64,000 bases of DNA, from positions 1-64,000 of the forward strand of contig JANZZG010000038.1 in assembly GCA_026419515.1 (NCBI GenBank). Reading direction: 5' to 3'. How positions within the stretch are numbered: position 1 is the first letter of the stretch; every line of letters begins with the position of its first letter. The notes under the pieces were generated by a model. It did no database searches. It was given only the letters and a program-made list of their open reading frames with translations, and was not told the origin of the DNA. The position numbers and the translations under genes were made by a program. Positions 42,712-57,557 of the stretch are shown in pieces. The stretch comes from Methylophilaceae bacterium (GTDB lineage: Bacteria > Pseudomonadota > Gammaproteobacteria > Burkholderiales > Methylophilaceae).

Positions 42712-43401
42712 CTAGCTGATCCAGTCCCGTAACTTGCTGCGCAACCGCATCACGGCTTGGCTGTGGATCTGGCAGACACGCGACTCGCTCACGCCCAGAA
42801 TTGCACCAATTTCCTTGAGATTGAGGTCCTCCTGATAATACATCGCCATCACCATCTTTTCCCGTTCCGGTAATTCCTTGATGGCCTGAATCAACGCCTG
42901 ATGCAAACCGGAATCCAGTATGGTCTCGAGCGGTGTTGGCCGTGTGTCCGCGATATCGAGCTCGGCCGGATCCCCATTCTCGTCGTGGAAGTCCTCGTAG
43001 TACAGCAGCTGGTGGCCACGCGCATCCGCCAACATCGATTGGTATTCCGTCAGCTCTATCCCCATGGCATCGGCAATTTCCTGCTCGGTCGGCGCATGTC
43101 CCAGCTTCTGCTGTAGTACCGCGATCGTCTGCTCGATTTCCCGCGCATGTTTGCGTACCGAGCGCGGGACCCAGTCGATCTCTCGCAACGCATCGAGCAT
43201 GGCGCCACGGATGCGTTGAGACGCATAGGTTTCAAACTGGGCCCCCTGATTTTCATCGAAATGCTCCATTGCAGCGAGCAGGCCCAACATACCCGCCTGC
43301 ATCAAATCATCCACTTCTACGCTGGCTGGCAATCGAGCGGCGAGCTGGTGTGCAATCCGCTTGACCAGCGGCGCATACGCTAGGACAGAGCGCTCCTGCA
43401 T
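42712..43401 (-). CDS. fliA: RNA polymerase sigma factor FliA (sigma-28)
   Basis: 229 aa. Region 2 (YAPLVKRIAHQLAARLPASVEVDDLMQAGMLGLLAAMEHFD, then YASQRIRGAMLDALREIDWVPRSVR) and region 4 (REKMVMAMYYQEDLNLKEIGAILGVSESRVCQIHSQAVMRLR) match flagellar sigma factors. It directs late flagellar and chemotaxis gene transcription and is held by FlgM. Its gene is immediately after flhG. Confidence 0.97.
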   Translation of the reverse strand: MQERSVLAYAPLVKRIAHQLAARLPASVEVDDLMQAGMLGLLAAMEHFDENQGAQFETYASQRIRGAMLDALREIDWVPRSVRKHAREIEQTIAVLQQKLGHAPTEQEIADAMGIELTEYQSMLADARGHQLLYYEDFHDENGDPAELDIADTRPTPLETILDSGLHQALIQAIKELPEREKMVMAMYYQEDLNLKEIGAILGVSESRVCQIHSQAVMRLRSKLRDWIS

Positions 43402-44194: not shown

Positions 44195-45625
44195 CTAGCC
44201 AATGAATGCCCCACTCCCCGACCAAACATCCTGTAGAGCCATTTCCTGCGGGCTGAGCTGGGAGGCTGGGCTCAACTGGCCTTTGAAGGCACGATCCACC
44301 AAATACGCGGCGTTCGCCAAATGTAGATCCTCGGGGACGCGCTGCCCATTGGTCACGTAATGGAGATCGAGTCCATAACGAACCAGACAATCGACGGCCG
44401 GAGCCAGCGACACCGATTCATCGATCTTGGTCAGAATGCAGCCCTCCAAGCCGGTACCGCGATAAGCGCGTACGATATCGTCCAGCGTCACCGTTTGTGC
44501 CGTGGCTGGGAGCAGTAGCTGCCGACGTACGCGGCTACCGCGTCCACACAAGAATTCGATTTGTTCTGCAATGCGTCTGTCGCGCTGGCTCATCCCGACG
44601 GTATCGATAAGCACCAAGTGGCTGCGCTGCAAGTCGGCCAACGTCAACTCCAATTCGGCTTCATCCCGCACCGCATGAACCGGCACATTGAGGATGCGAC
44701 CGTAGATTCTGAGCTGCTCATGCGCACCGATCCGGTAACTATCCGTCGTGAGCAATGCGACTTTCTCCGCCCCGAATTTGAGCACGGCACGTGCGGCCAG
44801 CTTCGCAACCGTCGTCGTTTTGCCCACCCCCGTGGGACCGACCAGCGCGACGATGCCCCCACGTTCCACGATATCCGCCCCTGGCTCCACGGCACGCAAG
44901 TTGTGCGTCAATGCCGCCTTGAGCCATTTCATTGCGCGTTCGTAATCCAGCCCTTTGGGCAAAGCATCGACCAAGCGGCGTGACAACACGGGGCTAAAAC
45001 CCGCTGCGAACATCGCTCGCAACAGCTGGGCCTTGAGCGGGTCATTGCGCGCCAGTTCACCCCAAGCAAAGCCAGAAAGCTGGCTTTCCAACAAACTACG
45101 CATGCGCTTGAGCTCGCGCGCCATCTCCGCCACCACCGGGTCTTGCGTCATTGGTGTCGCTTGCACGGAGGCCGGTTGGGATTGTGGGGCAAATGGCGCC
45201 TCGCCCCCCGACGAAGGCGAAGCGGATGGCACTTCCTGGGTCACCGTTGGTCGCCGATAGGTTGGGGTCTCCTCTATGGGATCGGGCACGGGCACCGTGG
45301 CGACCGGTTTATGAGCGGTTTGTACTCTCTCGAAAACCGGCGCGCGCACCGTCTGTGCTGGCCCAATGGAGCTCATTTGACGACGATGTAGAATCGCAGC
45401 GATGGTATCTGGGCCGATGGCGGGCTTGGGTGGTGGTGGCGCGTCGCGCCGCAGAGCCGGATTTCCATAGGTCAGTGCTTCGACTTCACCGTCGGCGACC
45501 GCCATGATTTCCACCCCACCGTCCACCTTGCGGTTAGAGAGGATCAATGCGTCGGCTCCCAGCGCATCGCGCACCTGACGGAGCGCATCACGGGTATTGG
45601 TACCAAAAAATTTACGGACGTTCAT
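44195..45625 (-). CDS. flhF: Flagellar biosynthesis GTPase FlhF
   Basis: 476 aa from the ATG at 45623-45625 (MNVRKFFGTNTRDALRQVRDALG). An N-terminal basic domain, then a Pro/Gln-rich linker of about 90 residues, an N-domain helix bundle, and the SRP-type GTPase domain: G1 LVGPTGVGKTTT (263-272), LLTTDSYRIGAHEQLRIYG, LIDTVGMSQRD and LTKIDES. FlhF determines the cell pole where the flagellum is built. It is the first gene of the flhF-flhG-fliA-motC-motD set; flhA and flhB are not next to it. Confidence 0.95.
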   Translation of the reverse strand: MNVRKFFGTNTRDALRQVRDALGADALILSNRKVDGGVEIMAVADGEVEALTYGNPALRRDAPPPPKPAIGPDTIAAILHRRQMSSIGPAQTVRAPVFERVQTAHKPVATVPVPDPIEETPTYRRPTVTQEVPSASPSSGGEAPFAPQSQPASVQATPMTQDPVVAEMARELKRMRSLLESQLSGFAWGELARNDPLKAQLLRAMFAAGFSPVLSRRLVDALPKGLDYERAMKWLKAALTHNLRAVEPGADIVERGGIVALVGPTGVGKTTTVAKLAARAVLKFGAEKVALLTTDSYRIGAHEQLRIYGRILNVPVHAVRDEAELELTLADLQRSHLVLIDTVGMSQRDRRIAEQIEFLCGRGSRVRRQLLLPATAQTVTLDDIVRAYRGTGLEGCILTKIDESVSLAPAVDCLVRYGLDLHYVTNGQRVPEDLHLANAAYLVDRAFKGQLSPASQLSPQEMALQDVWSGSGAFIG

Positions 45626-46055
45626 GCGCCCCGCCCTGACCGTGTCTCGACCGAGAGCGAACCCTCCGCGTTGCACGAAAACGCTCGCCGAGAGAAGGAT
45701 GCGTGAGGAATTCCTGATCCGCCATGCTAAAGCAAGTTTAACACGGGAAAAATCAAAAAGCAGTGGTTGCCCACGATGGGACATCTTCCCGGTTGATGGA
45801 ATCACGTACCACTGCGCCAAGGGCTAGGCTGGTGGCGCTCAACCCTCGACGCAGCCTTCCTTGATGAAGCGCAGGCTGGCGTCATCCTGCGCGTGAGTGT
45901 CCCGCGTCATTTGGATTAGGGGCCGATGCTTTCCATCCATGGTCGAAACATGCAAAATATTTACCGTCGCAACGCCCTTGGCTTGCGTTAGAGACACCCA
46001 GGCCAGGGGCCATTCAAACCAACCATTTCAATCAGTTCAATCAAGGAGGATCGAC
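45626..46055. other. Gene-free divergent region between flhF and the peroxiredoxin gene
   Basis: 430 bases. It must hold the promoters of both divergent units. TTGATTTTTCCCGTG near 45745-45760 (minus) and TTAAACTTGC behind it are promoter-like for flhF but not convincing. A short minus-strand frame (ATG at 45908-45910, TGA near 45838) would encode 23 residues without a ribosome site and is not called. No OxyR-type operator could be recognised before the peroxiredoxin gene. Confidence 0.45.
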
Positions 46056-47954: not shown

Positions 47955-49055
47955 TCAACGTCCGGAAACCGATGCACAAACCGCACAGATACGCGCAGGA
48001 ATTTCGTGTAAAGGAACTTCCTCGCAAACTGCACCGAGCTTCATCGCCTCCTTGGGCATCCCGTACACGACACAGGTCTCCTCGTTCTCGCCAATGGTGT
48101 AAGCGCCACTATCACGCATTTCCTTGAGACCGCGCGCGCCATCATCTCCCATGCCCGTCATGATGATCCCGAGCGCATTCTTGCCGGCACATTTCGCCAC
48201 CGAACGAAACAACACATCGACCGATGGCCGATGGCGATTCACCAGTGGACCGTCGATGATTTCGACATGATATTGCGCTCCACTACGTTTGACTATCATG
48301 TGCTTGCCGCCAGGCGCGATCAAAGCGCGGCCAGGCAGTACCCGATCATTGTTTTTGGCCTCCAGCACCTCGATCTCGCATAGCTTGTTGAGACGTTGCG
48401 CAAATGCTTCAGTGAATTTTTCCGGCATATGTTGAACAATGACGATGCCGGCACAAACACGCGGTAAGGCGGTCAGGACGAACTCCAGAGCCTGCGTGCC
48501 CCCGGTCGAAGTACCGATGGCGACGATCTGCTCGGTCGTGGAGCCCAATCGGGTCTCCGTTGGCGGAGGCAACACGGCATCCACACTGAGCTTGGGGGAC
48601 AGCTGCTTTGCCGGTGTCGACAGATGAGTGGAGGCCACCATGCGGCGCATGTCGGCATGGGCCGCAGCCTTGACAGCTTCGATCAAGTCATTGGAAGCAT
48701 CTTGTTGTAAAAATCGCTTTACGCCCATTTTGGGTTTGGTAATGATGCTCGTCGCGCCGGCTGCCAGTGCATCCATGGTCACTTTGGCGCCCTTTTCCGT
48801 CAGCGTGGAGCAGATCACCACTGGCGTGGGACGTTCCGCCATGATCTTGTTCAGAAATGTCAACCCATCCATACGAGGCATCTCGATGTCCAGTACAATG
48901 ACATCTGGCCATTGCAACCGCATTTTGTCCATGGCGAAGATCGGATCCATGGCGGTACCGATCACTTCTATCCCCGGATCCGAGTCCAAAACCTCCTTGA
49001 CGGCCTCGCGCACTACGGCAGAGTCATCGACGACCATCACCTTGATTTTTTGCAC
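47955..49055 (-). CDS. cheB: Chemotaxis methylesterase/deamidase CheB
   Basis: 366 aa. N-terminal receiver domain with phospho-acceptor D56 in [11 protein letters not shown], a linker of about 60 residues, then the methylesterase domain with the catalytic triad S183 (IGTSTGGTQ), H209 (VQHMPEKF) and D305 (GMGDDGARG). It removes methyl groups from, and deamidates, chemoreceptors. It is the last gene of the che series and overlaps cheD by 19 nt. Confidence 0.97.
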
Positions 49056-49543
49056 GGATTTTCTCCAATTTTGTTATTTTCGTTATGCACCAGCTTGACC
49101 TCACCGCTCCATACATCGAAAGTCAGCCGACGATGCCCGCTCATCCCCACATGGCTTTCCAGAAGAGTAAAACCATTCCGGTTCAATAAATCAAACGCCA
49201 TTTCTACATTCAATCTACCAATATCCATCTTGTTGCTGGATACGTCGAACATATTGCCTCCCCCATATAGCCTGACCTGGTACTGGCTAGGGTGGGTGCG
49301 GTACTTCTGGAGCTCGCGCATGAAAAGTTCCATGGCTTCATCTCCATACTTCCCACTTGGTTTGGTATAAGGCGCATGGCGCGTCGGCAACATATAGTGG
49401 CACATGCCACCATGTAACAACAGGGGATGCCATAAGGTGATGGAAACACAAGAACCAAGCACCGTAGCGATGCGCAGCTTGCCTTCGCCAAAGCAAAAAT
49501 CGCCAGGATGGAGATAGACTTCTCGAATCTCGGCCGAGTCCAT
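49037..49543 (-). CDS. cheD: Chemoreceptor glutamine deamidase CheD
   Basis: 168 aa. The catalytic Cys C32 in [10 protein letters not shown] and His H49 in GGMCHYMLP are in place, followed by [15 protein letters not shown] and [10 protein letters not shown], all typical of CheD. It deamidates glutamines in receptors and can bind CheC-type phosphatases; no cheC or cheZ is present in this window. It overlaps cheB by 19 nt and lies 2 bases after cheR. Confidence 0.96.
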
Positions 49544-49545
49544 CG

Positions 49546-50367
49546 CTACATCTTACGATAAATGGTTGGCTTCACCTGCAACAAGGCATTGGTTACCCCG
49601 CTGAGCGTTTCGGCATGGCCGGTAATGAAGTATCCCTTTGGTTTCAAACTAGGCACCAAATTTTCCACCACTCGCTTTTTGGTTGGGACGTCGAAATAGA
49701 TCAGTACATTACGCAGGAAGATCACGTCGAAATCTCCCTGCTTGGGGAGCGTCTCGACATTCAGATTCAGTTGCTCGAAACGCACATGCTGACGTAGCTT
49801 GCGATCAATCAGAAAAGTCCCCTCTTGATCGCGGACTCCTTTGAGACAGAACCGCTTCAGATACTCTGGCGGGATCCTGGCTGCCTCCTGCATCAGATAG
49901 TGACCACGCCGCGCCTGCTTGAGCACGGAACCATTGATGTCCGTGCCAAGAACCTCCCAGGCACCGGTTTCTCCCAATTTGTCGGCAAGAATCATGGCTA
50001 TGGTATAGGCTTCGGCACCGTTGGAAGTCGCTGCGCTCCATACCCGGAACATCTGGCCTGGGCGAATGCCGGGGAGGATGACTTGCTTGAGAAAATCAAA
50101 ATGTTGCGGTTCACGAAAAAAATGGGTCTCATTCGTGGTCACCGAATCCACCATGAACTGAAGCTCTTCCGCATGCTCTTCATCCAAGATATATTTGATG
50201 TATTGAGTATAGTTTGAAAACCCCAAGGCCTTCAGTCGTTTTGCAAGACGCCCCGTCAACAGCCCTTTCTTGGTGTCATTCAAGACTATGCCAGTAATAT
50301 CGTAAACCAGCTTGCTTAGCAGCCGGAATTCAGTATCGGATATCTCGTAGTAGGCACTTTCTGTCAT
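49546..50367 (-). CDS. cheR: Chemotaxis protein methyltransferase CheR
   Basis: 273 aa from the ATG at 50365-50367 (MTESAYYEISDTEF). A further ATG in frame at 50424 lies inside a folded leader and would add 19 residues. The N-terminal helical domain (GLLTGRLAKRLKAL) and the SAM-binding domain (FRVWSAATSNGAEAYTIAM, LGTDINGSVLKQARRG, DVIFLRNVLIYFD) are intact. It methylates receptor glutamates. Neither receptor in this cluster ends in a CheR-tethering pentapeptide such as NWETF. Confidence 0.93.
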   Translation of the reverse strand: MTESAYYEISDTEFRLLSKLVYDITGIVLNDTKKGLLTGRLAKRLKALGFSNYTQYIKYILDEEHAEELQFMVDSVTTNETHFFREPQHFDFLKQVILPGIRPGQMFRVWSAATSNGAEAYTIAMILADKLGETGAWEVLGTDINGSVLKQARRGHYLMQEAARIPPEYLKRFCLKGVRDQEGTFLIDRKLRQHVRFEQLNLNVETLPKQGDFDVIFLRNVLIYFDVPTKKRVVENLVPSLKPKGYFITGHAETLSGVTNALLQVKPTIYRKM

Positions 50368-50420
50368 CACGATAAATTCGTTCGTGTCCAGGCATTCCAA
50401 GGGATTGGCAAACGCCAGGA

Positions 50421-50546
50421 ACATAACATATGAATGGCCATACAGAATGACGTATAAAAGCGTAGGAGCTACCCGAACGTCCCGACCGGGAGGCTTTTTG
50501 TTATGTCATGGGAGCCGCATCCGGGCAAAAATTGCCCGTTAGCGGG
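50421..50546 (-). other. Strongly folded leader upstream of cheR (unassigned RNA structure)
   Basis: Within the gap between cheW and cheR, ACATAACA (50421-50428) pairs with TGTTATGT (50499-50506). It encloses AAAAGC (50456-50461) with GCTTTT (50493-50498), which itself encloses two small hairpins (50462-50472 and 50480-50491). Further upstream in the transcript CGGGCAA/TTGCCCG (50522-50538) competes with CCCG/CGGG (50535-50546), because both use the same CCCG. Competing hairpins before a gene suggest a cis-regulatory RNA, but no known riboswitch class was recognised. Confidence 0.4.
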
Positions 50547-50573
50547 TACCTTTTTACAAAATCTCCTGCCACG

Positions 50574-50615
50574 CAAAAAAGGGAAGCAGAGCCATCGTCA
50601 CGTCGATGGCTCTGC
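50574..50615 (-). terminator. Rho-independent terminator overlapping the end of cheW
   Basis: On the minus strand, GCAGAGCCATCG (50604-50615) pairs perfectly over 12 bp with CGATGGCTCTGC (50586-50597) around a 6-nt loop, followed by TTCCC and a run of T (50574-50580). The cheW stop codon (50598-50600) is in the loop, so the 5' arm is the last codons of cheW. It would reduce read-through from cheW into cheR. Confidence 0.85.
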
Positions 50616-51140
50616 CACCTTCTCAGAACCGATCTGCGAAAGTGCTGCCATTTCTTCCACCGACAATACTTTGTTGATATCCAGCAAAATTATGAACTTG
50701 CCATCGACTTTGCCCATGCCACTGATGAAGTCGTTACGAATGCGTGCCCCAAAAGAAGGCGGCGGCTCGATCTCCCCGCGAGGGATTTCCATCACCTCCG
50801 AGACACTGTCCACTATCACACCGATATCCTGTTTAGCACCATCTTCACCGGCATCGGCTTCAATGATGACGATGCAGGTTCGGCGCGATATTTCCGTGGG
50901 ATTGCGGCCGAAACGCGCCGACAAATCGATGACTGGAACCACGCTGCCTCGGAGATTGATTACGCCTCGGATGAAAGCCGGCATCATCGGCACCTCGGTC
51001 AGGTTGCCATATTCGATGATTTCCTTGATGTTGAGGATGCCGATGGCAAACATTTCGCCACCCAGCAGAAACGTCAGATACTGCTGATGGTCTTCAGGCG
51101 TAACCGGACTTGCAACGGCTGGCAGGTTTTTGTGTGCCAT
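50598..51140 (-). CDS. cheW: Chemotaxis coupling protein CheW
   Basis: 180 aa SH3-like coupling domain: QYLTFLLGGEMFAIGILNIKEIIEYGN, VPMMPAFIRGVINLRGSVVPVIDLSARFG, and IGVIVDSVSEVMEI. It links chemoreceptors to CheA. The N-terminal 15 residues and the C-terminal tail (EKVAEPST) lie outside the domain. It lies 11 bases after the mcp gene, and its end coincides with a strong terminator. Confidence 0.96.
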   Translation of the reverse strand: MAHKNLPAVASPVTPEDHQQYLTFLLGGEMFAIGILNIKEIIEYGNLTEVPMMPAFIRGVINLRGSVVPVIDLSARFGRNPTEISRRTCIVIIEADAGEDGAKQDIGVIVDSVSEVMEIPRGEIEPPPSFGARIRNDFISGMGKVDGKFIILLDINKVLSVEEMAALSQIGSEKVAEPST

Positions 51141-51151
51141 GGTGCCCTCTC

Positions 51152-52837
51152 CTAGAATTTTTCGAAATCTTGCTCGCTGGGTTCATCCTCGGCTTTGGCA
51201 AACCGTGTCTTGAGTTTTGGTTCCAGATTGCCCGCACGCCGCACCGAGGACACGGCATCAGCCCTGGACTCGGCCAGCTTGAAAAACATCATGGTACGCT
51301 GCAGATTCTCTGCCTGGCTGCTCATCTCCTCTGCTGCCGCCGCCAGCTCTTCCGACGCACTGGCATTCTGCTGCGTAGTCTGGTTGAGCTGGCCCATCGC
51401 AGTATTGATCTGTGAGACCCCGGTGGACTGCTCATTCGAAGCCGAGGCGATTTCCTGCACCAAATCAGAAGTCTTGGTAATGGTAGGAACCATGCCATCC
51501 AAAAGTTTGCCTGCTTTTTCAGCCAAACTCACGCTGCTCGAAGCCAGCTCACCTATTTCTTGTGCCGCCACTTGACTGCGCTCCGCCAACTTGCGCACCT
51601 CGGCCGCCACCACCGCAAACCCCTTGCCATGCTCACCCGCTCGCGCTGCTTCGATGGCAGCATTCAATGCCAAAAGATTGGTCTGGTAGGCAATGTCGTC
51701 TACGATGCTGATCTTGCTGGCGATCTGCTTCATCGCCTCTACCGTGTCCCTCACCGCCTGACCGCCTTCCTCGGCTTCCTTGGCGGCTTTGCTCGCCATG
51801 CTGTCCGTCACTTTGGCATTTTCGGTGTTTTGCGCGATGGAGGCCGTCATTTGCTCGATGGAAGCCGTCGTCTCTTCCACACTGGCTGCCTGCTCGCTCG
51901 AAGCCTGGCTCAACGATTGAGCCGTCGCGCTGATTTCCTCGGAAGCACTCGACAGCGAATCCGCCCCGGAACGCACTTCAGTGATGATTTGCGACAGCTT
52001 GTCGACCATGTTCTGCATGGACTCCAACAGTTGCCCCACCTCATCTTTCGAAGTCACCATGATCTTTACGGTCAGATCACCTTCAGAAAGCCGCTTGGCG
52101 ACCTGAACGGCCTGACCGACAGGCACCGTGATCGCGCGCGTGATCGTCCAAGCCAGCACCAGTGTGATCAAGATCACCGCAATGGCAAGGCTGATGAGCA
52201 TGCTGCGGGTCTTGAGATAGTTGGCATATTGTTGCTCTCCAGCCCTCTGCATCAGTTCCGTCTGATAGACTATCAAATCGTTGACGGCGTTTAGATAGTT
52301 GAGCTGCTTGGGACTGATCTCTTCCGTCAAATAAGTCACCGCCGCGTGATACTTGGCTTCTGCCAGGTTTCCATCCTTGGACTTGGCGTCTGTTGACTGG
52401 GTGGCCTTGGCTTGCAGATATTCATCGAGCATGCCCAGAAACTTATCCTGCCCACTCACGTAGTCCTTGCGGGCTTCCAGCACGGCCTGCAGGCGTTTCT
52501 TGCCTTCCTCGCTGGTAATCGTTTTCTGTAGTTTTTCGATGTTTTCCAAAATGATCTTGCGCGACTCATGGATTTTCTCTATTTGTTTTTTGATCAGTTT
52601 TTCGTCTTTGACCAACAGGGCATCACGCATGGAACGCGCAATATGGTTGACGTTGTCGATCACATTGTTGGCCCACACCGTCTTGGGGAATTTGTCATTG
52701 ACCATATTGTCCACTTCGGCATTCATGGCAGACATGCTCTGGATGCTGAGCACGGAAATGACCACCATGATCGCCAGCATGATGGCAAAACTGACGCCCA
52801 GTTTCATACCTATCTTCAAATTCTTGAACATTTTCAT
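51152..52837 (-). CDS. Methyl-accepting chemotaxis protein with 4-helix-bundle sensor
   Basis: 561 aa. The start at 52837 ([14 protein letters not shown]) is preceded by an AAGGGAG ribosome site; an ATG 15 bases upstream has none. TM1 (about 12-34), a periplasmic four-helix sensor of about 150 residues, TM2 (about 185-207), a HAMP domain ([23 protein letters not shown]) and the signalling domain with the hairpin tip [34 protein letters not shown] follow. The C-terminus DFEKF is not a CheR-binding pentapeptide. Ligand unknown. Confidence 0.95.
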
Positions 52838-52861
52838 GCTCCCTTTCCCCAATGATCGAAA

Positions 52862-55081
52862 TCAAACCCTAACCAGCTCTGTTTTGTCTCTACGAAACTG
52901 CTGAGAGGAAACGAACGTCACCAACGATTGCACATCCAGAATCAGCGCAACCTCACCCGTACCAAGAATGGTAGAACCACCGATCCCCTTGATGTTTCTG
53001 AAGATGCTGGAAAGCGGTTTGATCACGGTCTGGAACTCCCCTCTCAGCTCGTCCACGACCAGCCCCACCTTCTGGCCGGCATATTCGACTACCACAATGT
53101 TTTCTCGCTTGCCGCCAGGATCGGCGATCTCGAATTGATCTCGCAGCCGCAAGAACGGCAGCACCTCTCCACGCAAGTTGATATAGTTGTTGCGTCCAGC
53201 GATTGCTCGATCTTCCGCCGTGAGCTCCAGACACTCCACCACCGAATCGAGTGGAATCACATAAGTAGACTTGCCCACCCCAACCAGAAACCCGTCGATG
53301 ATGGCCAGTGTCAATGGCAACCGGATGCGAAACGTAGAACCTTGACCAAGCTGGCTTTCGACTTCGACATTGCCGCGCAGCGCAGTGATGTTGCGCTTGA
53401 CCACATCCAGCCCGACACCGCGGCCGGATAGATTGGTGACCTTTTCCGCCGTCGAGAACCCCGGCTCGAAAATCAGTGCATAGATCTCGGAATCTCCAAG
53501 CGTTTGGCTTTCCGAGATGATCCCGCGCTCTCTCGCCTTCCTGATGATTTTTTCCTTGTTGAGTCCTGCCCCATCATCGATGATCTCGATGACTATGCTA
53601 TTCGACTCATGGTAGGCATTGAATTTGAGCGTACCACGCGGCGGCTTGCCAGATGCCACACGTACCTCCGGCAACTCGATGCCATGATCAATCGCATTAC
53701 GCACCAAATGCATAAGCGGGTCGCCGATTTTCTCCACGACGGACTTGTCCAGCTCGGCTTCGCCACCGCTTATGACAAGGTCGATCTCCTTGCCTAACTC
53801 TTTGCTCGTGTCACGCACTACACGCTGGAAACGCTGAAAGGTTTCACCAATCTGTACCATGCGCAGCTGCAGCGCACTGTTGCGAATTTCCTCCACCAGG
53901 CGAGACATGACGGATGTGGCTTCGACCAAGGCTTCCTCACCGCTACGCTGCGCCAACAAATTGGCGCTGGCACCTGCGATCACCAGCTCACCCACCAGAT
54001 CGATGAGTTGATCGAGTTTCTCCGCCTGTACGCGGATCAGACGCGCTTCCAGCGACTTTTTCTCAGCCACTTTGACCTGCTTGACGGCTGCGGCTTCGAC
54101 CACCTCCGGAGCCACTGCCCCCTGATTGACCAGCACCTCGCCCAACCTGGGATGAGCGGCCGGCGACGCCTGCGCTTCGTTTCCGCTCGCTTCCAAAACA
54201 GAGGCCGATGCGGCAAGCTGTGCACTGAGCGCCAGTTCCAGTTCTTTTGGGGTCAAGGCTCCACATTTGACCAAGATTTCACCCAAACGCATGGTGTCTT
54301 CAGGCAACTGTTCGATGGCAGCGATGAAATCGGCCAGCCGACTGTGCGGCGGCCAAATATGCACGATGCAATCGTCACGAACGAAATCGAACACGCTTTC
54401 GATGCGCGCTTTGTCGGCATCCGACTTATAGGAGATTTCGAAACCCAGATAACAAGACTCTGGATCCATTTCACTGGCATCCGGCAGCGCATCGGGCAAA
54501 GTGGTCAGATTGATGATTTCACCGAGTTCCATGAGATAACGAATGAATGACGCCGGATCCATGCCTTTGCGCAATACATCCCGGCCAAAGCGCAAGGAAA
54601 TGTGCCAGTTGTCGGTTTCCATCATGCCACCCCCACTGGCTTGTACCTCGCTTTCGGCCTCGGTTGGCATCGTCTTCCCGGCGGTGACCGGCGGCACTCC
54701 TAAAAATCCTTGCAATTTTTGGCGCAAATCATGGCTCGCCTTCGCCGTCTCCTCATCCGGTGTCGCCTCTCCTTCCACACACCCAACCAGGGTGCGCAGA
54801 TGATCGGTGCAGGCGAGCAGCAATTCCACCAAACCGGTCGATGGTTGGATTTCTCCAGCACGCATCTTGTCGAGCACGTTTTCCAACACATGTGCGAATC
54901 CAACCACGAAGGTACACTCGATGACACCCGCCGACCCTTTGATGGTATGCACGGCACGGAAAATGGCATTGATCGTGTCCGGATCGCCCTGTCCCTCCTC
55001 CATTTGCAACAAATTGTCTTCCATCTGCTGCAACAGCTCTTGGCTTTCCACCACGAATGCCTGCTGGATCGCGTCCATCAT
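52862..55081 (-). CDS. cheA: Chemotaxis histidine kinase CheA with two MshEN-like repeats
   Basis: 739 aa. Hpt domain with the phosphorylated H45 in VHTIKGSAG; a domain of about 100 residues (157-262) with CYLGFEISY; two 24-residue repeats at 265-288 and 312-335, each starting RLGE(I/V)LV and ending in Q; a dimerisation part (KLDQLIDLVGELVIAGA); the kinase domain with N box HLVRNAIDHG (458-467) and G boxes DDGAGL and GRGVGLDVV; and a CheW-like domain. It autophosphorylates and feeds CheY and CheB. Length and domains are otherwise standard. Confidence 0.95.
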   Translation of the reverse strand: MMDAIQQAFVVESQELLQQMEDNLLQMEEGQGDPDTINAIFRAVHTIKGSAGVIECTFVVGFAHVLENVLDKMRAGEIQPSTGLVELLLACTDHLRTLVGCVEGEATPDEETAKASHDLRQKLQGFLGVPPVTAGKTMPTEAESEVQASGGGMMETDNWHISLRFGRDVLRKGMDPASFIRYLMELGEIINLTTLPDALPDASEMDPESCYLGFEISYKSDADKARIESVFDFVRDDCIVHIWPPHSRLADFIAAIEQLPEDTMRLGEILVKCGALTPKELELALSAQLAASASVLEASGNEAQASPAAHPRLGEVLVNQGAVAPEVVEAAAVKQVKVAEKKSLEARLIRVQAEKLDQLIDLVGELVIAGASANLLAQRSGEEALVEATSVMSRLVEEIRNSALQLRMVQIGETFQRFQRVVRDTSKELGKEIDLVISGGEAELDKSVVEKIGDPLMHLVRNAIDHGIELPEVRVASGKPPRGTLKFNAYHESNSIVIEIIDDGAGLNKEKIIRKARERGIISESQTLGDSEIYALIFEPGFSTAEKVTNLSGRGVGLDVVKRNITALRGNVEVESQLGQGSTFRIRLPLTLAIIDGFLVGVGKSTYVIPLDSVVECLELTAEDRAIAGRNNYINLRGEVLPFLRLRDQFEIADPGGKRENIVVVEYAGQKVGLVVDELRGEFQTVIKPLSSIFRNIKGIGGSTILGTGEVALILDVQSLVTFVSSQQFRRDKTELVRV

Positions 55082-55088
55082 GTTTCTC

Positions 55089-55418
55089 CTATCGCCTCGA
55101 AGTATGTTTCTCGGCAGGAATTACCATGGGGTCGCCGAAAAATGCCGCCATATTGTAAAGGTCGAGCATCTCGGTCACGGCCTTGCTATGGGCGCTCAAG
55201 CAGACTTTCTTGCCTGCCTTGCCGGCTTCGCGCTTGATCAGCAACAGCAATTGGAACCCCGCCGTATCCATTTCGCCCACCTGCGATAGATCCAGATCCA
55301 GTTCCTCACTGTCACCCAACGCATTGAGCAGCAACTCTTTCTGCGCCTTTGCAGTGTAGATGGTCATGTCTTCCTCGATCACCAATCGGCGCACGCCAGC
55401 GTCGTTTTTAGCCACCAC
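55089..55418 (-). CDS. STAS-domain protein (anti-sigma-antagonist type)
   Basis: 109 aa. The start is GTG at 55416-55418 with an AAAGGAG site 7 bases before it. The STAS core LDLDLSQVGEMDTAGFQLLLLIKREA has Thr at the position usually phosphorylated in SpoIIAA-like proteins. It is 7 bases from cheA and 13 after the second mcp, so it belongs to the che transcript. STAS proteins in such clusters may couple to receptors or to a kinase/phosphatase pair, but no matching kinase is seen here. Confidence 0.88.
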   Translation of the reverse strand: MVAKNDAGVRRLVIEEDMTIYTAKAQKELLLNALGDSEELDLDLSQVGEMDTAGFQLLLLIKREAGKAGKKVCLSAHSKAVTEMLDLYNMAAFFGDPMVIPAEKHTSRR

Positions 55419-55431
55419 CCACCGTCTCCTT

Positions 55432-56715
55432 TCAGAACAACTCGATCTTTGGGGGCTCTGGGGCGGACGCCGAAGCCACCGCCCCCCCTCCCACGGAAGT
55501 CATGTGAACGTTGCGCTGTTTGTCCATGACGTACCCCTCGTAAATCTGATCGATATGCTCCTTGATGGAGGTCGCCTTGGAAAAATCCTGGCTGCGCAAT
55601 ATTTCCACCAGTTGTGCCACGTGTGAATCCAGTCGTTCCAAGGCTTTCTGCACTTGTTCGATCTGCTGGCGCGTGACGTCCTGAAACTGAATGCTGGACA
55701 ACATTTCCATGAACATTTTCGAAAGGGTGGTGCTGGTATTCTGGATGCTGGCCAGCAGTTCCTCATCACGCTTTATCATGTGCTGGTAATTTTTGCCCAT
55801 GGTGTCGAGATGAGAGGAAAAGTGTTCCAGAACTTCTTTTTGTTGCTGAATGTTGGAATGTGCCAGCTTGTTCTCGAACTGGGTTTGTATGGTGTGTGTG
55901 ACCTTGCTGATGCCTTCTTGGATCTTCGTGACTGCCTGCTCCGTTTCGGCAGAAAGCTTACGTACCTCGTCAGCCACCACGGCAAAGCCTCGCCCCACTT
56001 CGCCAGCACGCGCCGCTTCGATGGCTGCATTGAGCGCCAGTAGGTTGGTTTGCGAAGAAATGTCCCGAATCAGATCGACCAGAGACGTCAGTGAATTCGC
56101 TTCATGTACCACCATGCCGATACGCTGGCGGTCTTCCTCGAATTCCGCGAAACGCTCGCGAATGTAGTCGTTCAAACTACTGATCAGTGCCACGTTGGAC
56201 TCGATGTTCTTTTCACCGGATTTGATCATCGTTTCAGCTTCTACAGTGCTGTTGGCTACCAAGCTCACCAACTCGTTGATGACGCCATCGATGGCCTGCA
56301 AGCGTTCCATGATCATGAAGGCGGAACTCTCCGTCTCCTCCATCACCGCTTGTAATTGATTCTTGAGCAGGGTGGTCAGGGAAGGCAGTTCACTCAAATC
56401 GTTCGCAGTAATCTCCAGAATACGTTCCTTTTCCCTGAGCTGCTCGTCCAGCTGTTCGTTGACGAACGCCATACCCAGGGCAATGTCATGGAACAATGCT
56501 TTGCTCACCATGTTGTGGAGCTGGAAGGCAACCAGAATGATGAACGTTGAGCCCACCATATCGACCAATGGCTGCGCAAGCCCCAGCCTCGCCGCCAGGT
56601 CATGGTAAACCGTATGGAACATGAAAATACCGATGGCGCATGCCACCGCCGTGACGACACTGACCCCAAACTGGCGTAACAGATGTCTGCGCAGATCCAG
56701 CCGTTCGAGCTCCAT
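55432..56715 (-). CDS. Chemoreceptor-like protein lacking a periplasmic sensor
   Basis: 427 aa. Two hydrophobic segments (about residues 18-37 and 52-72) are separated by only some 15 residues, so there is no periplasmic sensor domain. A coiled-coil region leads to an MCP signalling hairpin with [40 protein letters not shown]. The C-terminal part ([24 protein letters not shown]) is unlike standard receptors and ends Pro-rich. It could sense membrane or cytoplasmic state, or act as a scaffold. Confidence 0.9.
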
Positions 56716-56725
56716 CCCTCAGTCC

Positions 56726-57091
56726 TCACTTCATGACGAGCTTGATAGTGCCCAAAAGTTGGTCGGCACTCACCGGTTTCACCAGCCAGCCCGAAGCCCC
56801 GGCGGCTTTGGCTTCGTCACGCTTGGACTGTTGCGACTCGGTCGTGAGGAACAAAATCGGCATGAATCTATGGGTGGGTAACTTGCGTACCTCCTTGATG
56901 AATTCAATGCCATTCATGCCGGGCATGTTGAGGTCCGTGATCAGCAGGTCGGGTTTCAATCCGCTCTGGAACCTGGCCAGCCCCTCTTCGGCGCTGGACG
57001 CTTTTTCGACGGCAAAACCCGCCTTGGTCAGAATGGTGGACATGCTGAGGAGTATCGTGGCGGAATCATCGACGAGCATGATAGTTTTCAT
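56726..57091 (-). CDS. cheY: Response regulator CheY
   Basis: 121 aa single receiver domain from the ATG at 57089-57091 (MKTIMLVDDSATI). Acidic pair D8/D9, phospho-acceptor D53 in ITDLNMPGMNG, and the conserved Thr and Lys (LFLTTES, WLVKPVS) are all present. It carries the phosphoryl signal from CheA to the flagellar switch. It is the first gene of the che series. Confidence 0.95.
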   Translation of the reverse strand: MKTIMLVDDSATILLSMSTILTKAGFAVEKASSAEEGLARFQSGLKPDLLITDLNMPGMNGIEFIKEVRKLPTHRFMPILFLTTESQQSKRDEAKAAGASGWLVKPVSADQLLGTIKLVMK

Positions 57092-57557
57092 AGACCGGCC
57101 GTTCTCATGGTTTGATTGCTCCTTGTACATACTCCCTTGCCGCGAATCCCCTGAAAAATGGGATCAGAACCGAAGGTGGCGGCAAACCTCGAAGGGATGA
57201 TGCTGGCAGGCGACATTTGATGGGGGCCAACGCGAGGGTATGACCAAACTGCCCAATATCACTGCCACACCCATCTACCCCGCTTGGCAGACCAGGATCC
57301 ATGCACATCGCTATGGTCCTTACAGCGTACCATAGGCCGCCTTTTGCGTAAGCCATCGATCCCTAAAGTGATGGCCTTACTTTACCACATTCACTTTGCA
57401 AGTAAATGCTTGGGCGTCTTAAAAAACTCGACCGCGATGCACTCGCGCAAAAGACACCGAAAAAAACAGGGATGAGCGTCAGATGGCCGTGTGGAATCAG
57501 GTTAGACTACACGCCGACGCTTCAGCGTCGGTTTCTCCAGGTAAGTGCAGTTCACCT
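57092..57557. other. Gene-free region between purF and cheY, with a small hairpin
   Basis: 466 bases without a credible gene; several open frames cross it but none has a ribosome site or family similarity. It must hold the promoter of the che transcript. Near the purF end, CCGACGC (57514-57520), loop TTCA, GCGTCGG (57525-57531) forms a 7-bp hairpin followed on the plus strand by TTTCTCC; on the minus strand no T-run follows, so it is a weak terminator candidate for purF at best. Confidence 0.45.

Follow-up and report, generated by a model that had tools for sequence, protein, structure and literature searches.

Introduction

The choice between swimming and attachment is made via c-di-GMP. Among the domains that receive this messenger, MshEN_N of Vibrio cholerae MshE (PDB 5HTL) consists of two 24-residue motifs with a spacer of 5 residues, which fold as a four-helix bundle on c-di-GMP; without MshEN_C, it binds the ligand at 0.35 µM (PMC5013675). 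In the pilus ATPase PilF of Thermus thermophilus, the GSPII-C domain, with a loop of 7 residues, has an affinity for c-di-GMP similar to the 500 nM of MshE (PMC11731258). In NfrB of E. coli, MshEN is likewise a c-di-GMP input fused to an enzyme, there placed C-terminally on a membrane glycosyltransferase (PMC8669469). For Pseudomonas aeruginosa, a methyltransferase is described as the chemotaxis protein on which c-di-GMP acts, by way of MapZ, which is a separate c-di-GMP-binding adaptor and not, as in the case presented below, a module of the target itself.

The main text of Wang et al. 2016 (PMC5013675) names CheA among the proteins associated with MshEN; the fusion has thus been in print since 2016, as a list entry, and these proteins have the same domain combination as the CheA described here. 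In the accessible portions of that paper we found no binding or kinase test of CheA, and in the open-licence literature, as far as its accessible text extends, no test of c-di-GMP binding by CheA.

We have analysed a window of 64,000 nucleotides (the whole stretch of DNA under study), in which a cheA gene encodes, in the linker between the P2-like domain and P3, what is almost certainly a complete MshEN_N domain. As compared to MshE, the CheA module sits in the middle of a kinase, has no MshEN_C, carries a loop of 23 instead of 5 residues and has Val and Ala for two leucines of repeat II. New here are the near-fixed register of the domain to P3, the probable expansion of its loop from 5 residues and the coexistence of invariant glutamines with a degenerate repeat II.

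Two Repeats in the CheA Linker

The Hpt, P3, HATPase_c and CheW domains recognised by Pfam occur in the order expected of CheA (Table 1). The P2-like domain is without a Pfam match; its model resembles ferredoxin-like folds, including the CheA P2 domain 1u0s (Z 7.3, tied with many others).

Table 1. Features of the cheA gene and its surroundings (positions in the window).
Feature	Position	Strand	Evidence or remark
cheA, 739 aa: P1 (Hpt), P2-like, MshEN_N module, P3, P4, P5	52862..55081	-	
P1 / Hpt domain, residues 7-96	54794..55063	-	PF01627 2e-16
P2-like ferredoxin-like domain, about residues 155-245	54347..54619	-	AlphaFold model of 150-404
MshEN repeat I, residues 265-288	54218..54289	-	RLGEILVKCGALTPKELELALSAQ; R265, L266, G267, L281, L285, Q288: all six contacts canonical
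Inter-repeat loop, 23 residues, low confidence	54149..54217	-	
MshEN repeat II, residues 312-335	54077..54148	-	RLGEVLVNQGAVAPEVVEAAAVKQ; R312, L313, G314, Q335 retained; V328, A332 replace two contact leucines
Single predicted helix, residues 325-380: final MshEN_N helix into first P3 helix	53942..54109	-	AlphaFold
P3 dimerisation domain (H-kinase_dim), residues 347-405	53867..54043	-	PF02895 1.5e-11
P4 ATPase domain (HATPase_c), residues 455-591	53309..53719	-	PF02518 1.6e-18
P5 CheW-like domain, residues 597-721	52919..53293	-	PF01584 9.4e-28
STAS-domain protein gene immediately upstream of cheA	55089..55418	-	PF13466 1.4e-15
Chemotaxis cluster	47955..57130	-	cheY-like receiver, mcp, STAS, cheA, mcp, cheW, cheR, cheD, cheB (reading direction)

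An earlier note on this DNA had placed two repeats in the linker; its coordinates hold to the base, and both repeats follow the 24-residue pattern that it gave. Of the 24 positions, 12 have the same residue in both repeats, and the ungapped comparison of the repeats scores 55, where the maximum in 300 shuffles of residues 250-347 is 35. Open stretches of at least 60 aa in the six frames of the window sum to 81,941 residues; in these, the relaxed form of the Wang et al. motif occurs only twice, in the two CheA repeats, which both fit the relaxed two-motif pattern. The strict pattern is broken in repeat I, whose position 11 is an Ala; of the 80 rows (best 80 of 573 relatives), one shows it in repeat I and none in repeat II. 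The spacer of 23 residues departs from the 5 that mark MshEN_N in MshE; we do not hold its length to exclude membership, since GSPII-C binds with its 7-residue loop.

In the 18 loci L006-L023 (L006 is the window's own copy), the relaxed pattern is found in both repeats three times, in one repeat four times and in neither 11 times. As only three loci fit it twice, the domain was recognised by alignment and profile instead. A scan with the same pattern of the less similar CheA loci L024-L039 gave no match. Two of the 17 CheA loci L007-L023, namely L022 and L023 (about 47% identity), have no module in the alignment, implying that a CheA of this type need not have MshEN_N.

Sequence Profiles

The likeness to MshEN proposed in the earlier note turns out to be homology to MshEN_N, on which sequence profiles, the predicted fold and the relatives agree. 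A profile of the 80 linkers, compared with solved structures, finds PilF at 7.8e-17, PilB at 3.2e-8 and MshE (5HTL) at 4.6e-6, and of the 15 sequences with E ≤ 10 in the list, all but one belong to these three proteins. The NCBIfam model NF053729 (c-di-GMP_motif, 53 positions) matches all 80 linkers of the best 80 of 573 relatives at E ≤ 0.01 (best 4.8e-16). It scores 38.9 bits on the window's linker alone (cut-off 38) and 31.9 bits, under the cut-off, on the whole CheA. Scanned against the whole genome, it matches repeat I at exactly 54218-54289 (E 1.8e-4; 22.6 bits, under the cut-off), with frames of 573 and 619 aa, both of which pass the cut-off, ranking above. Depending on the search, repeat I is aligned to the first or to the second half of the model, which the similarity of the two repeats would lead one to expect.

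The profile search suggested in the earlier note was thus borne out by NF053729 and the family profile, but not by PF05157, the model that it had named, which has no match at E ≤ 10 in the window's CheA and none on contig C22. We examined PF05157 matches in loci L001-L005 and L120-L147 (host genome G000 and relatives): in 21 of these 33 loci, i.e., in all those with a recognisable motif, the match begins after the motifs, and the other 12 showed none. Since the motifs precede the match, PF05157 models MshEN_C, and its silence is no test of MshEN_N. Proteins that, like the window's CheA, carry MshEN_N only would escape a survey of c-di-GMP receptors that relied on PF05157 alone.

Seven of the loci examined (L001, L123, L125, L126, L130, L132 and L140) are further instances of an intact motif paired with a degenerate one: motif I is near-canonical, and motif II begins with P and ends with T. 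These proteins, products of other genes with frames of ~570-620 aa, are probably pilus or secretion ATPases.

DUF4388 was rejected as the identity of the linker, as it scores 17.4 bits on the window protein and 19.1 bits on the linker against a cut-off of 25. Its best stretch in the window's linker covers repeat I, and 67 of the 80 linkers (best 80 of 573 relatives; alignment A2, window 54041-54334) match it at E ≤ 10, the best at 4.2e-5, which hints that DUF4388 itself may hold an MshEN-like motif. Two glycosyltransferase models of NCBIfam, one of them NfrB, also match CheA linkers.

Predicted Fold and Junction to P3

The structure prediction of the linker, proposed earlier as a check, yields a four-helix MshEN_N bundle. 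In the AlphaFold model of residues 250-347 (80 sequences, pLDDT 82), the predicted helices span residues 266-273, 278-298, 313-320 and 325-346, preceded by a short helix at 251-258; the inter-repeat spacer is the low-confidence part and loops out, with the bundle undisturbed. Foldseek ranks MshEN-type domains first with this model, at weak E-values (best 0.63, probability 0.99). We ran VIA-align on the 30 chains ranked highest by Foldseek. MshE with c-di-GMP comes on top (Z 8.6, rmsd 2.0 over 59 residues), followed by four PilF GSPII-B entries with c-di-GMP (Z 8.2-8.4, rmsd 1.4-1.5 over 57) and two Xanthomonas PilB N-domain entries (Z 6.8-6.9), all below the Z of about 13 under which a match may reflect an arrangement common in helical bundles. 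The first row below these seven has a Z of 3.2; this gap and the sequence match argue against a likeness of mere bundles.

In the AlphaFold model of residues 150-404 (76 sequences, mean pLDDT 89.5; alignment A3, without rows L080, L089, L094 and L106 for reasons of size), which is a monomer predicted ligand-free, the fourth MshEN_N helix continues unbroken into P3. Foldseek searches with this longer model are dominated by ferredoxin-like folds, with no MshEN domain among the 50 listed of 950 hits, and VIA-align gives 5HTL at Z 8.4, the same Z as unrelated ferredoxin-like rows, whose match lies in another part of the model.

Conservation and Distribution among Relatives

Conservation was counted over the best 80 of 573 confirmed relatives, i.e., over close relatives (80 distinct rows including the window; the duplicate L110 was dropped). 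Most of them belong, judged by their names, to Betaproteobacteria or Gammaproteobacteria; two are named Rhizobium and Nitrospira. Repeat I is well kept, with R1 in 68/80, L17 in 77/80 and G3, L21 and Q24 in 80/80. Repeat II has G3 and Q24 in all 80 rows as well; its position 1 is P in 48/80 and R in only 6/80, the window among the latter, position 17 is V in 73/80, and position 21 is L in 45/80, A in 17/80 and V in 16/80. The full set of six contacts, with L or I accepted at position 2, is found in 63 of the 80 first repeats and in none of the second ones.

Mean column entropy in this close set is 1.29 and 1.34 in the repeats, 1.19 in the P2-like domain and 2.14 in the inter-repeat loop, which occurs in 18 lengths, from 6 to 28 (the window's 23 is the second longest). 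The attachment points vary far less: 19 residues lie between the end of P2 and repeat I in 80/80, and 19 between Q24 of repeat II (Q335) and K355 of P3 in 79/80. This combination of nearly constant attachment and a loop free to vary is consistent with coupling of the domain to P3; the low divergence of the set may explain part of it.

Across the class, 274 genomes yielded 27 matches at E ≤ 3.1e-17, which lie in 21 of them, with a clear gap to the next match (1.3e-10); 19 of the 27 are confirmed as CheA, the window included (18 of 18 fetched). The other 20 genomes with strong matches carry 16-79 GGDEF domains each, and the host genome has 18 GGDEF, 15 EAL and 4 PilZ matches. Over 20 class-wide rows (the 18 fetched strong matches, L169 and the window), the spacing from Q24 to P3 is 19 in 17/20 and that from P2 is 19 in 14/20. 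Repeat I has Arg1 in 10/20 and Gln24 in 18/20, and repeat II has Gln24 in 20/20 and a T at position 2 in 5/20. In the distant CheA proteins L151-L154 the loop is exactly 5 residues long, like in MshE, suggesting that 5 is the ancestral length and that the loop has grown later.

Of two weaker class-wide matches, one is not CheA. The other, L169 (G278:C65), is a CheA that keeps much of repeat I and has lost most of repeat II; its module is possibly caught in mid-decay.

Ligand Contacts and Published Mutants

With CheA R265 in register with MshE R9, the module agrees with MshE at 10 of 12 contact positions, six of six in repeat I and four of six in repeat II. The ligand-contacting residues are accordingly present for the most part in the structural alignment. 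The claim of the earlier note that the spaced leucines are among them stands for repeat I and fails for repeat II, where V328 replaces MshE L54 and A332 replaces L58; both are positions of the leucine cluster that lies beneath the second guanine.

Published mutants bear on these changes, as far as the accessible texts report them. In a PilF GSPII-A construct, Ile for both contact leucines led to a 2.4-fold loss (PMC12002112), and in E. coli NfrB, changes of Leu to Ala affected phage plating moderately and additively (PMC8669469), so that V328 and A332 need not abolish binding. On the other hand, reversion to Ser at position 1 of repeat II abolished binding in a GSPII-A construct with Ala41, Ile55 and Ile59 as further deviations (PMC12002112). 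The best profile match of the linker, GSPII-C of PilF, has in its repeat II P, V, L and Q at positions 1, 17, 21 and 24, which are the commonest residues of the CheA family there; GSPII-C also has a third motif and may not be a clean precedent (PMC11731258).

The contact glutamine of MshE touches the ribose and the phosphate of the ligand (PMC5013675), and both glutamines are among three positions required for measurable binding in GSPII-A (PMC12002112). Judged by their entry titles, the PilF GSPII-B mutants Q190E and Q218E are deposited in the PDB as c-di-GMP-bound structures; an invariant glutamine by itself is therefore no proof of binding.

Discussion: A Candidate c-di-GMP Input to the Kinase

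That the linker is a c-di-GMP input into CheA, binding of which alters autophosphorylation, is the reading that we favour, at about even odds. Binding of c-di-GMP by the window's CheA has, in our estimate, about an even chance; an effect on kinase activity, its sign included, we would assume with less confidence. Extended to the family, the proposal is a tentative one: a conserved beta-/gammaproteobacterial branch of CheA may be directly allosteric to c-di-GMP, with the final helix of an MshEN_N clamp serving as the dimerisation helix of P3, such that the biofilm messenger would gate chemotactic phosphorylation inside the kinase.

The putative mechanism would start with one c-di-GMP clamped between repeats I and II of the four-helix bundle, which would order, stiffen or re-orient the bundle. 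The loosening of the bundle without ligand in shortened GSPII-A constructs, which fold upon binding according to the accessible text (PMC12002112), lends such a step a plausible physical basis. As the prediction makes a single helix of the bundle's final one and the first one of P3, the change could shift the helix that enters P3 and, with it, the geometry in which P1 and P2 are presented to P4, altering the access of P1. Autophosphorylation would then rise or fall with c-di-GMP, and the cellular level of the messenger could set the gain of chemotaxis, no adaptor protein being involved. If true, a receptor domain inside CheA, held in near-fixed register to the dimerisation helix, would provide a direct route for c-di-GMP.

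The chief alternative, which we consider possible though doubtful, is that the module is a degenerate MshEN_N that has lost c-di-GMP binding and is kept as a rigid or dimerising spacer between P2 and P3. Such a spacer could by itself explain why the intervals on either side of the module, to P2 and to P3, hardly vary. Among the best 80 of 573 relatives, repeat II has mostly lost a contact Leu (to Val at position 17) as well as the Arg at position 1. MshEN-type domains that do not bind have been reported, namely XpsE (PMC5013675) and GSPII-A of PilF (PMC12002112). However, their own sequences, as given in the accessible texts, set them apart: XpsE has lost the glutamine of repeat II (Q61V, PMC5013675), and GSPII-A has neither glutamine (H33, R62), whereas Q24 is invariant in both repeats of these 80 CheA relatives and repeat I retains Arg1 in most of them.

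It is unlikely that the family binds c-di-GMP and the window's CheA alone has lost binding, through Ala332 and its 23-residue loop. Ala at position 21 of repeat II is indeed a minority state, and the loop is near the upper end of the range among the best 80 of 573 relatives. Against this, the window keeps the Arg1 of repeat II that 74 of the 80 lack, the model loops the spacer out of a bundle predicted to be undisturbed, and the effects of Leu-to-Ala changes in NfrB, as available to us in print, are of the moderate and additive kind cited above.

Very improbable, in our view, is a module that senses a different nucleotide, such as 3',3'-cGAMP or pGpG. MshE does bind cGAMP, weakly (KD 3.3e-4 M, PMC5013675), and repeat II has the look of a weaker half-site; the abundance of GGDEF domains in the 20 other genomes searched speaks indirectly for c-di-GMP. 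A chance resemblance of a low-complexity linker is rejected, as none of the 300 shuffles reached the score of 55 and as profiles, fold and conservation all contradict it.

Gene Neighbourhood

The c-di-GMP input proposed for CheA would act within a chemotaxis cluster (Table 1) whose gene order is similar in the loci of the relatives. Close to the cluster lie a sigma-70-like gene (42712-43401, minus strand) and a gene for an SRP54-type GTPase (44195-45820, minus strand), which we take to be probably fliA and flhF; if so, the cluster may serve flagellar motility. The STAS gene is found in 75 and cheY in 74 of the 80 loci (best 80 of 573 relatives), making them equally constant companions of cheA.
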